Below are positions 21,743 through 25,680 of a stretch of DNA of 64,000 nucleotides, in pieces. Made by a program: the position numbers and the translations under genes. The notes beneath the pieces were generated by a model. The model was not told the DNA's origin and ran no database searches. It saw only the letters and a list, made by a program, of their open reading frames with translations. The first letter of the stretch is position 1, and each line of letters starts with the position of its first letter. This DNA comes from Leptolyngbya sp. FACHB-321 (GTDB lineage Bacteria; Cyanobacteriota; Cyanobacteriia; Leptolyngbyales; Leptolyngbyaceae), in assembly GCF_014695975.1 (NCBI RefSeq), contig NZ_JACJPI010000078.1, positions 1 through 64,000 of the forward strand, written 5' to 3'.

Positions 21743-22498
21743 GGAGACTCTCCCGAATCTGAAAGTGTAGAGAGTTAGATCCGGAGAAACGCTCCTAAGA
21801 CGAATCACACAGCCGAAAATAATCCTTATTCGTAAGCCTAGCACAACTTTCTGTAAAGACGTGGTTCCTACCCCATGAGCAGTGCTCCTGCAAGCGATCG
21901 TCCTCTAGTAAACGCAATCATCATATGAGCCGGTTTGCTAATCTGTTCAACCGGAGCACGCTTGCTTATATACAGCTTTGGTACCTTTGATTAGTTAAGA
22001 GGTAATAGGTCTGTAAATTGTCAAAGTCTTTCTGAATCCTAAATCCTGAATCCCAATGCCTTGCTAAATTTTTTTTTTGAGTTGCACCCTGTCAACCGGC
22101 TTGTGGGACGATCGTTCAGCGATCCAATCGCCCATCAAGCATATCTTTTCATGGTAATTTATACTCTGAGATGCTATCACCTACTGGTCTTGAAGATGAG
22201 AATCTTTTTATATAGATCGAAGATTATTGCAAGAGCGTCTGGTTGTTTATGAGCAACAGCAGGGCACAATCCTAACTATTAGCTTCTCGTTAAGTGAATT
22301 GCTAAGACATAGATGGTTGACGCACTGCAAACTGTTTTAAGGCACTTTAAACTAAACCTCTCCACGTAAAGTCTAAAGAACGTAAAGTCTAAAGATTAAT
22401 GAAGATTGATGAAGTGGATGAACGTTTAGCTAAAATCTCAGTCGATTGCCCCATAGAAATCAACCATTTCTCTCTAACTTTTTATTAGGAGCGCTTTC
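21743..22498. other. Spacer of 750 bp between rbp and the lpxA-like gene
   Basis: Contains the divergent 5' regions of rbp and lpxA-like. A 16-base tandem duplication (see 22365-22396) lies near the right end. A short frame around 22061-22252 has no coding character. No RNA gene or terminator was found. Confidence 0.5.
22365..22396. repeat. Tandem 16-bp duplication
   Basis: CGTAAAGTCTAAAGAA is followed directly by CGTAAAGTCTAAAGAT, differing only in the last base. It lies about 100 bases upstream of the lpxA-like gene and may be a slippage product or operator pair. Confidence 0.7.
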
Positions 22499-23347
22499 TT
22501 GATTACCTTGCTGCATCCAACGGCGACCATTCATCCTGATGCCGAATTGCATCCAACTGTGCAAGTCGGAGCCCATGCTGTAATTGGGGCGAAAGTGAAA
22601 GTGGGTCCTGAAACCGTTATTGGTCCCAATGTTGTGCTAGACGGTTGGACTGAAATTGGCGCACGTAACCATATTTTTCCGGGTGCGGCGATCGGTGTTG
22701 AACCACAAGACCCCATTACGACTAGCGCAAACAGTTTAGTCAAAATTGGGGATGACAACCAAATTCGAGAATATGTGACGATCAGCCGATCAAATCGAGC
22801 AGATGAAGTAACGGTGATTGGCGATCGCAATCTATTGATGGCGTATATCCATATTGCTCAAGGATGTGTCATTGAGAACAATGTTGTGATCGCCAATGCA
22901 GTCATTCTGGGCGAACACGTTCATGTTGAATCGCGAGCATTTATCAGCGGCATCGGTGAAGTTTATCCGTTTGTTCGCATTGGTCGCTTAGTGATGGTCG
23001 CATTCATGCACCAAATTACCTGCGACATACCGCCCTATATGCTGGTAGAAGGTCAGCCTGCTCGAGTGCGATCGCTGAATCGGGTCGGTCTTAAACGTGC
23101 CGGGTTGATGGCAGAACAGGAAGGGCAAGTGATTCAGACCTTAAGAACTGCCTTTCGTTTGCTCTATCGGTCAGACTTATCGCTGGATGAGGCGCTCGAA
23201 AAGCTCGATCAACTGCCCGATAACGAACACTTACTGCATCTGAAACAATTTTTATGTAGCTCTCAAATGGAAGGACGGCGTGGGCTTACTCCTGGAAAGA
23301 GTGCGGACAGCAAAAGTGATATGAAGCTAAGTGCTGTACAGGAATAA
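22499..23347 (+). CDS. lpxA: LpxA-type acyltransferase paralogue with altered active site
   Basis: The 282-residue left-handed beta-helix protein resembles UDP-GlcNAc O-acyltransferase, the first lipid A enzyme, with hexapeptide repeats (VIGPNVVL, VIENNVVIANAVILGEH) and the C-terminal PPYMLVEGQPARVRSLN. E. coli His125 lies in HIAHDC; here the same position is Gln121 in HIAQGC. His160 is also replaced (Tyr156 in GEVYPF), while the counterparts of His122 and His144 remain. Catalysis by the usual general-base route is therefore doubtful. Translation starts at TTG 22499 (GGAGCG upstream). It stands alone rather than with fabZ, lpxC and lpxB. It may be a different acyltransferase or a structural paralogue. 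Confidence 0.8.
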   Translation: MITLLHPTATIHPDAELHPTVQVGAHAVIGAKVKVGPETVIGPNVVLDGWTEIGARNHIFPGAAIGVEPQDPITTSANSLVKIGDDNQIREYVTISRSNRADEVTVIGDRNLLMAYIHIAQGCVIENNVVIANAVILGEHVHVESRAFISGIGEVYPFVRIGRLVMVAFMHQITCDIPPYMLVEGQPARVRSLNRVGLKRAGLMAEQEGQVIQTLRTAFRLLYRSDLSLDEALEKLDQLPDNEHLLHLKQFLCSSQMEGRRGLTPGKSADSKSDMKLSAVQE

Positions 23348-23466: not shown

Positions 23467-25680
23467 CTAGCGATAAGCTTGGACAAACGCGATCGTGCTG
23501 CGCCACTTCACAGCTTGATTCACCAGGCGCGTGAACGCCGATCGCACTTTTGTAAGTTCTGCTTGAGATAAGTGGTGCGAGAGGTGAGTAGCATAGGAGG
23601 GTTGAATGCTGTTGGCCGCGAACCAGCGATCGACCAGTGCTGCCGTGATGAGCATTTCTGTAGACAACGGTTCGACCTGAAGCACAACCGTAAAGCCAGC
23701 TGTCTCAAACATTGCTTGTAGATCTGGCGCATCCCAGTTCACCATTGAATCGTCGGGCTGAGTGTAGATCGCCTCTTCTGCTTTCACCAGCTTCTGATAG
23801 AGCTTGTCACTCAGCCAACCAGGATCAAGCAGTTGGTAAAGCCGCTGTGCCTGATGGGGAATCGATTCCGCCAAAGTGACTGTGCCGTTGGGTTGCAACC
23901 AGTTGGCAAGCGATCGCACAATGCCGGCTTTACCCACTTCTCGCATAAGTGCATTTCGCCCCATAATGTGGTCAAACCGCACGTCGCTTGCTTGTGCCTC
24001 TAGAGCTGTTGGCAATTCAGCAAGGGACGTTTGCAGCACGAGCGGGCGGGCGAGTTCTGGTAAAACGGCAGCTTGCTGGGTCATCGCGTTGGCATCGGTC
24101 GTGGTGCGAACGCAGGCAATGACGCTGCCTTCAGGAGTCTGGCGTATAGCTTCCCAGGTCAGCAAACCGCTGCCAGCGTTGAGATCCAGCACAACATGAT
24201 GACGTTGAGGGGCGGCGAGGGCAAAGAGGCGATCGCGCACCTCTCCTAAGCGATCGCCTGCCTGTCCTAGTGTGCGCAGGAGCCAACGCTCCTGAGCCGA
24301 ATCCACAGGTCCAAAGGTTAGCACTTCGGGCAGTGCCACACTCGTCCCTTCGAGCAAAGCTGCTAGTTGTGCTTCACGGCGTCGCGCCACTTGCGTCTGA
24401 ATTGCCGACTCAAAGCCGCGATCGGACGGTTGGTAGAAGACCTGACCTTGCAGACTGCTAGGCAAATACTGCTGTGCCACCCAGTGGTCGCGGTAGGCAT
24501 GAGGATAGAGATAGCCTGCGCCATGCCCAAAGCCTTTTTTGTCTCGATTGGCATCTTTAAGCGGATTAGGGACATCGCCTTCCCGCTCTTGCTCGACGGC
24601 TGAGAGCGCATCGAAAAAACCCATAACGCTGTTGGATTTGGGAGCCGTTGCTAAATAGAGCGTGGCATGAGCCAGTGGATAGCGACCTTCGGGTAAACCA
24701 ATGCGATCGAAGGTCTCGGCACAGGCATGGACAATCGTGATCGCGTTAGGGTCTGCCATCCCCACATCTTCACCTGCTAGAATCAGCAGCCGACGAAAAA
24801 TGAAGCGCGGATCTTCCCCGGCATAAACCATCCGTGCCAACCAGTAAAGCGCTGCATCGGGGTCTGACCCACGTACACTTTTAATGAACGCGCTAATGGT
24901 ATCAAAGTGAGCATCGCCTTCTTTGTCATACAGCACAGCACGGCGCTGAATTGATTCTTCCGCAACCGCTAGGGTGACATGGATGCTGCCTGCTGCATCC
25001 GGTGGTGTGGTTTCAACTGCCAGTTCCAACGCATTCAGCAGCGCGCGGGCATCGCCATTGGCGACATTCACCAGATGATCGAGCGCCGCGTCCTCTAACT
25101 GCACGTCGAGCTTGCCATAACCGCGATCGTCATCCTGTAATGCCTGCTGCACCACATTTCGCAAGTCTTGTTCGTCCAGTGGCTTGAGTTGGAAGAGCCG
25201 CGATCGACTTACCAGTGCCTTATTCACCTCAAAATACGGATTCTCGGTTGTCGCTCCAATCAGAATCACCGTGCCATTTTCTACCCAAGGTAAGAGCGCA
25301 TCTTGCTGTGCTTTGTTAAACCGATGCACTTCATCTACGAACAAAATGGTTCGCTGACCATACATCCCGCGTTTGTCCTGGGCAGCAGCGATTGCCTCTC
25401 GAATCTCCTTCACCCCTGACAGCACCGCATTAATCGCAATAAAATGTGCCTGTGTAGTGTTGGCAATAATCCGCGCTAGCGTTGTTTTTCCCGTGCCTGG
25501 TGGTCCATAGAAGATGAGTGAAGAAAGCTGGTCTGCTTGAATCGCTCGTCGCAGCAGTCGTCCAGGACCGACGATCGCATCCTGCCCCACAAACTCATCC
25601 AGTATGCGGGGGCGCAACCGTGCTGCCAGCGGTGCTTCAGCTTCAGTGATATCTAAGCGATGCTGCTGGAAGAGATCCAT
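23467..25680 (-). CDS. rarA: RarA/MgsA-type AAA+ ATPase fused to a methyltransferase-like domain
   Basis: The 737-residue protein has two parts. Residues 1 to about 430 are a RarA (MgsA) replication-associated recombination ATPase: GPPGTGKTT at 59-67, [23 protein letters not shown], and the MgsA C-terminal tetramer region ([31 protein letters not shown]). Residues about 470-737 resemble a SAM-dependent methyltransferase core: [24 protein letters not shown] and later hydrophobic strands, with no clear catalytic NPPY. This fusion is a known cyanobacterial RarA/unknown-domain architecture. RarA acts at stalled forks in the cytosol. The ATG 25680 sits 5 bases from the divergent DUF3445 start. Confidence 0.88.

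Follow-up and report, generated by a model that had tools for sequence, protein, structure and literature searches.

The gene at positions 22499–23347 (forward strand) of the window, the 64,000-nucleotide stretch of DNA analysed here, raises the question of whether a protein that matches the acyltransferase LpxA over its full length, but has no histidine at the position of the catalytic base, is still an LpxA and, if not, what it is kept for. LpxA catalyses the reaction with which synthesis of outer-membrane lipid A begins, and it is regarded as a simple homotrimer. The open reading frame encodes 282 amino acids, and its product scores 292 bits against NF003657 (cut-off 226) and 258 bits against TIGR01852 (cut-off 231), with Hexapep repeats (PF00132) and a C-terminal PF13720 (Acetyltransf_11) domain. 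Its best-scoring solved relative is 4EQY, and E. coli LpxA (1LXA) is also matched. Since the curated cut-offs are passed, profile annotation alone gives the name LpxA to what is probably a non-enzyme.

The genome of the filamentous cyanobacterium from which the window comes (6.7 Mb in 91 contigs) also contains a canonical LpxA, 63% identical to the window protein, on contig C52. There the gene order is lpxC-fabZ-lpxA-lpxB and the HVGHNC and GVHQF motifs are intact; an LpxD-like gene lies on contig C61. The lipid A pathway of cyanobacteria has been described as a simple one of four enzymes (PMC3087551), and it appears to be complete in this genome without the window gene. The first-pass annotation had described the gene as isolated from the lipid A genes, as is indeed the case, the cluster being on another contig, and had proposed a search for a second lpxA with intact motifs; that search finds it between fabZ and lpxB. 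The window copy is thus a paralogue and not the sole LpxA of the cell, a full-length duplicate by its frame and its profile and Pfam matches.

The TTG start noted at first pass lies behind an AGGAG ribosome-binding site (22487–22491, forward strand) located 7 nt 5' of it. TTG is common to all eight orthologues, a GGAG-type site lines up with it at the seven other loci, and a TTGACA-like box is visible by eye in five of seven aligned upstream regions. On one side the window gene is flanked by genes for an RRM protein and bS21, and on the other by rarA; the other loci of the genus place it likewise between bS21/RRM/pentapeptide genes and rarA. On the left, the window agrees with all five loci long enough to include that flank (L034, L035, L037, L038 and L039), that of L036 being lost to a contig end; on the right, rarA occurs in the window and in all of the six loci but L039. 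The Scytolyngbya genome (G017; L040, L066) has its paralogue in a different neighbourhood. Within the genus the arrangement has the appearance of simple vertical descent. The neighbours in the window, the genus loci and Scytolyngbya reveal no partner or regulatory link; nor do they give any hint of the role in lipid or surface-glycan metabolism that had been suggested.

Two features of these surroundings may be recorded in their own right. The RarA-like AAA ATPase gene of the window (23467–25680, reverse strand) is a 737-residue frame, conserved within the genus, with what appears by eye to be a methyltransferase-type C-terminal domain. In Scytolyngbya, two related genes that have a common N-terminal region adjoin the paralogue (L066:3706–7576), and one carries a HELTHVAQQSG-type motif, of a kind known from proteins associated with contractile injection systems.

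For the active site, the eight paralogues and 41 comparison cyanobacterial LpxAs were aligned to E. coli LpxA with MAFFT; the 41 are not independent of one another, since the eight host copies and several closely related sequences are among them. In LpxA, as described in PMC6286764, His125 is the base, Asp126 completes the dyad, Gly143 forms the oxyanion hole, and Gly173 and His191 set the chain length; the roles of His122, His144 and His160, and the effect of the G173M substitution, are taken from PMC6408518. As reported at first pass, the family motif reads HIAQGC in the window protein, with Gln121 (CAA codon, 22859–22861, forward strand, as are all codons given here) at the position of His125. 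The histidine is present in 41 of 41 comparison sequences and lost in seven of the eight orthologues, which have Gln in six cases, Pro in one and His in one. Lys76, a GlcNAc contact, is Ile73 (22715–22717) in the window protein and Ile (three), Thr (three), Ser (one) or Ala (one) across the paralogues, against Lys in 41/41. Gly143 is replaced by Glu139 (22913–22915; Glu in 8/8, Gly in 41/41). His160 and Gln161, both invariant in the 41 LpxAs, correspond with Tyr156 and Pro157 (22964–22969), and Pro157 is common to all eight paralogues. The tyrosine, also noted earlier, is true of the window protein but not of its family, being peculiar to this genome; five of the other orthologues keep His, one has Gln and one Phe. 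The acyl-chain ruler Gly173 becomes Phe169 (23003–23005), again in 8/8, compared with Gly in 36 and Ala in five of the 41.

Further changes surround these. The Asp126 position is Gly in seven paralogues and Ser in one (Asn in 40 and Asp in one of the comparison set). Glu154 occupies the Ala158 position in all eight (Gly in 41/41), His171 the Ser175 position (Ser in 35, Thr, Gly and Ala in two each) and Gln172 the Gly176 position (Arg in 40, Lys in one). Glu139, Glu154, Pro157, Phe169, His171 and Gln172 are thus fixed new residues, whereas Lys76, His125 and His160 vary freely, with four, three and four residue types among the eight sequences. One orthologue (G003) retains His125 although Lys76, Gly143 and Gln161 are already changed, so that these three losses need not have awaited loss of the base.

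What has been retained is equally distinctive. The UDP contacts Asn198, Arg204 and Met170, and also Met118, are kept in all eight paralogues, as are Gln73, His122, His144 and Gly201, with Asp74 in seven. Active sites in LpxA lie between subunits (PMC6408518, PMC7072397). In these accounts one subunit contributes a UDP face (Asn198, Arg204 and Met170), with Gly173 on the same protomer face as Met170 and Gly155 (PMC6408518), and the next subunit a GlcNAc/catalytic face that comprises Gln73 to Lys76, His125, Gly143, His144 and Gln161. The changes are concentrated on the second face. Among 101 columns that are near-invariant (≥95%) in the 41 LpxAs, 16 are changed in at least seven of the eight paralogues; these 16 include four of the six GlcNAc/catalytic contacts (Lys76, His125, Gly143 and Gln161; hypergeometric P = 0.005) and none of the four UDP contacts, the contact lists being those given in PMC7072397. 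Among the paralogues themselves, one of ten positions varies on the UDP/ruler face and six of twelve on the catalytic face, in a grouping made after inspection of the alignment table.

No catalytic histidine shifted along the sequence, a possibility that had been set down as counting against loss of the base, is evident. Each of the 11 histidines in the window protein was compared with the aligned sequences, and only His171 is new near the pocket; it is far from Gln121 in sequence, and we do not accept it as a likely replacement base. A small residue is usual at its i+4 position of the hexapeptide register, from which the side chain presumably points inwards. An AlphaFold2 monomer model of the paralogue, built with eight sequences, is poor (mean pLDDT 54), and a scan of viral contigs for more diverse LpxA sequences gave weak, partial matches only.

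The canonical LpxA shows a variation of its own at another position. His144 is Tyr in the canonical copies of G000 (the window genome), G001, G002, G004, G005 and G006 (L061, L052, L053, L055, L056 and L057), which are exactly the six genus genomes with Gln at position 125 of the paralogue; G003 and Scytolyngbya have His144. As the six are close relatives, the match may reflect one event and coincidence.

The paralogue is present in all seven genomes of the genus that were compared (G000–G006; the Stenomitos/Tildeniella/Leptolyngbya group) and in Scytolyngbya, that is, in eight of 42 family genomes at E ≤ 1e-115. The loci of closest relatives come from Leptolyngbya sp. ES-bin-22, Tildeniella nuda, Stenomitos frigidus, Stenomitos rutilans, Lyngbya sp. 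HA4199-MV5, an Oscillatoriales MAG and Scytolyngbya sp. HA4215-MV1. Among 338 genomes of the class, further matches as strong occur only in three of family f25 (G065, G079 and G092), one per genome, at 67% identity and with the catalytic pocket intact. Two LpxA matches at E ≤ 1e-50 are found in ten of the 338, namely the eight, G057 and G099; the second match in G057 sits on a cut-off contig, is near-identical to the LpxA of another genus and probably represents contamination. With the threshold relaxed to E ≤ 1e-15, a hand count gives about 60 of the 338 with two or more matches; part of these are split genes (G014, G072 and G141), and the 13 divergent ones examined belong to a different family that has His125, described below. 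The idea that a second LpxA is rare is accordingly wrong as a general statement, and rarity holds for the window paralogue.

The paralogue is maintained under strong purifying selection across the genus. All eight frames are open, and the median dN/dS is 0.053, compared with 0.042 for the canonical gene (seven genus genomes, 21 pairs each). For each gene a single pair yielded no ratio; over the 20 computable pairs the range for the paralogue is 0.03–0.09. dS is near saturation (median about 1.25), which makes these ratios rough. Since the ratio of about 0.05 is like that of the true LpxA, this is not a decaying copy. The paralogue might have arisen when the host lpxA was recently duplicated. 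All trees recover one paralogue group (support 1.0, 1.0 and 100) outside the host copies, but a topology that unites the two is not rejected by an AU test (p = 0.059), and such an origin may still hold. The f25 sequences are the nearest relation in both FastTree runs, with weak support or midpoint rooting, and not in the third tree. Where the Scytolyngbya copy falls with respect to those of the genus changes from tree to tree, with weak support, and both vertical descent and transfer of that copy are compatible with them.

That the window gene encodes a probable pseudoenzyme derived from a cyanobacterial LpxA is well supported by these comparisons. The earlier suggestion of a non-catalytic paralogue is strengthened by the changes at Lys76, Gly143, Gln161 and the acyl ruler in a gene that selection evidently preserves, and the protein probably no longer makes UDP-3-O-acyl-GlcNAc alone. 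Its likeness to LpxA lies in the full-length profile match, the hexapeptide helix with PF13720 and the UDP contacts; it differs in lacking His125, Lys76 and Gln161, in having Glu for Gly143 and Phe for the ruler Gly173, and in being a second copy outside the lpx cluster. It has probably been kept for a job other than that of LpxA, and the reading that we prefer, with a probability of roughly 0.4, is that it enters mixed trimers with the true LpxA as a non-catalytic subunit. This proposal is drawn from the siting of LpxA active sites between subunits: a UDP face that is kept, apart from the Phe ruler, and a catalytic face that is broken are what would be expected of a subunit that works beside a true LpxA and never alone. 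In such a trimer, a site to which the paralogue supplied the catalytic face would be dead, and one in which its UDP face lay beside a true LpxA could retain activity, now with Phe as the ruler. Because G173M shortens the chain accepted by E. coli LpxA (PMC6408518), Phe at 173 would be expected to do likewise, and a shorter acyl chain or lower output is predicted; the paralogue would then tune the amount or chain length of the lipid A precursor. A stricter form, in which LpxA is asymmetric, the paralogue acts as a specificity subunit whose UDP face and Phe ruler complement the catalytic face that the true LpxA supplies, and cyanobacteria of this genus set acyl length or output by the ratio of the two, seems to us doubtful. 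Were it true, the lipid A enzyme would have a split site with one half preserved and the other abandoned. A conserved copy with a substrate-binding face and no catalytic face could serve as a natural experiment on shared trimer sites, and as a possible regulator in cyanobacteria.

Several observations pull against mixed trimers. That the two LpxAs bind one another is our own conjecture, and in Segatella copri AlphaFold3 is described as favouring homotrimers over heterotrimers (PMC12643348), although that pair is ~45% identical compared with 63% here. One orthologue still has His at 125, and the Glu at 143 and Pro at 161 are fixed rather than drifting, which may mean that the site of the paralogue itself has acquired a positive function. 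A self-trimerising pseudoenzyme with its UDP pocket intact, serving to sense or scaffold UDP-sugars or acyl-ACP or to bind another protein, would fit the sequence nearly as well, as would a new enzyme. The self-trimer is somewhat unlikely: the invariant Asn198, Arg204, Met170 and Met118, the retention in 8/8 of Gln73 and His122, which contact the acyl 3-OH (PMC6286764), the presence of the C-terminal domain and the six fixed new residues all suit it, but no partner, neighbour or regulatory link accompanies it, the genus neighbourhood being one of plain descent and the Scytolyngbya copy lying elsewhere. Neofunctionalisation, giving a different transferase with, for example, His171 as a new base alongside Glu154, or with substrate-assisted transfer, we consider unlikely. 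His171, Glu154, Glu139 and Gln172 are fixed in all eight where the comparison LpxAs differ; against this, the small-residue setting of His171 would suit a buried side chain, and the free drift of Lys76, His125 and His160 is unlike that of a reused sugar or catalytic pocket. The repurposed acyltransferase proposed at first pass is likewise possible but gains no positive support.

Continued function as an LpxA, with slow acylation of UDP-GlcNAc now or until recently by a redundant copy or one of altered chain length, is improbable. Scores above the NCBIfam equivalog cut-offs and the His125 of one orthologue in eight would favour it, and for S. copri and Psychrobacter the duplicates have been suggested as a means of varying the acyl chains (PMC12643348, PMC4557000); yet Lys76, Gly143 and Gln161 are changed in 8/8, the His125-bearing orthologue included, and the cell has a complete canonical copy. 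Least credible of all is a decaying duplicate heading for loss. Catalytic positions do vary between species as decay would have it, but the open frames and canonical-like dN/dS refute the idea as it stands, and the start and ribosome-binding site are conserved as well.

Genomes with two lpxA genes, a likeness to the present case, have been described for S. copri and other Bacteroidetes, Psychrobacter and Geobacter (PMC12643348, PMC4557000, PMC3087551). The S. copri pair keeps its catalytic residues according to PMC12643348, whereas the window paralogue lacks them. In the open-access literature found, duplicate LpxAs are known, but none is described as lacking catalytic residues, and we met no account of a conserved paralogue in which the catalytic histidine of LpxA is missing. 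A precedent is CAL2 of plant complex I, a subunit that has only one of the three zinc histidines and forms a heterotrimer with the more intact CA1 and CA2 (PMC7447434). Like CAL2, the paralogue has lost active-site residues beside an intact copy in the same cell; it is also maintained by selection. CAL2 differs in belonging to another enzyme family, being gamma-carbonic-anhydrase-like, and in that its mixed trimer has been solved where that of the LpxA paralogue is proposed. Trimers of the CAL2 kind are of the hexapeptide-helix type.

Other LpxA-like proteins were met in the course of these comparisons. A lone, very divergent second LpxA (L082:1501–2280, in G099 of family f30) has its QDLKY loop replaced, Phe for His122, Ala for Gly143 and Pro for Gln161, and keeps His125; some of these losses are common to the window paralogue, with no particular relationship between the two. 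A second LpxA-like family occurs in many cyanobacteria, represented by 13 loci in the 13 genomes examined (L123–L135), and was not found in the window genome. Its members resemble the window paralogue in being LpxA homologues that stand beside a canonical lpxA and have lost Lys76; they differ in keeping His125, in forming a separate, deeper branch and in being 34–42% identical to the window protein. All 13 retain His125, Gly143, Gln161 and Gly173, and in all 13 Lys76 is replaced by Ala, Ser or Thr and His144 by Tyr. Lys76 and His144 are described as holding the GlcNAc 6-OH in P. aeruginosa LpxA (PMC7072397), and this family may comprise acyltransferases for a UDP-sugar altered at C6.
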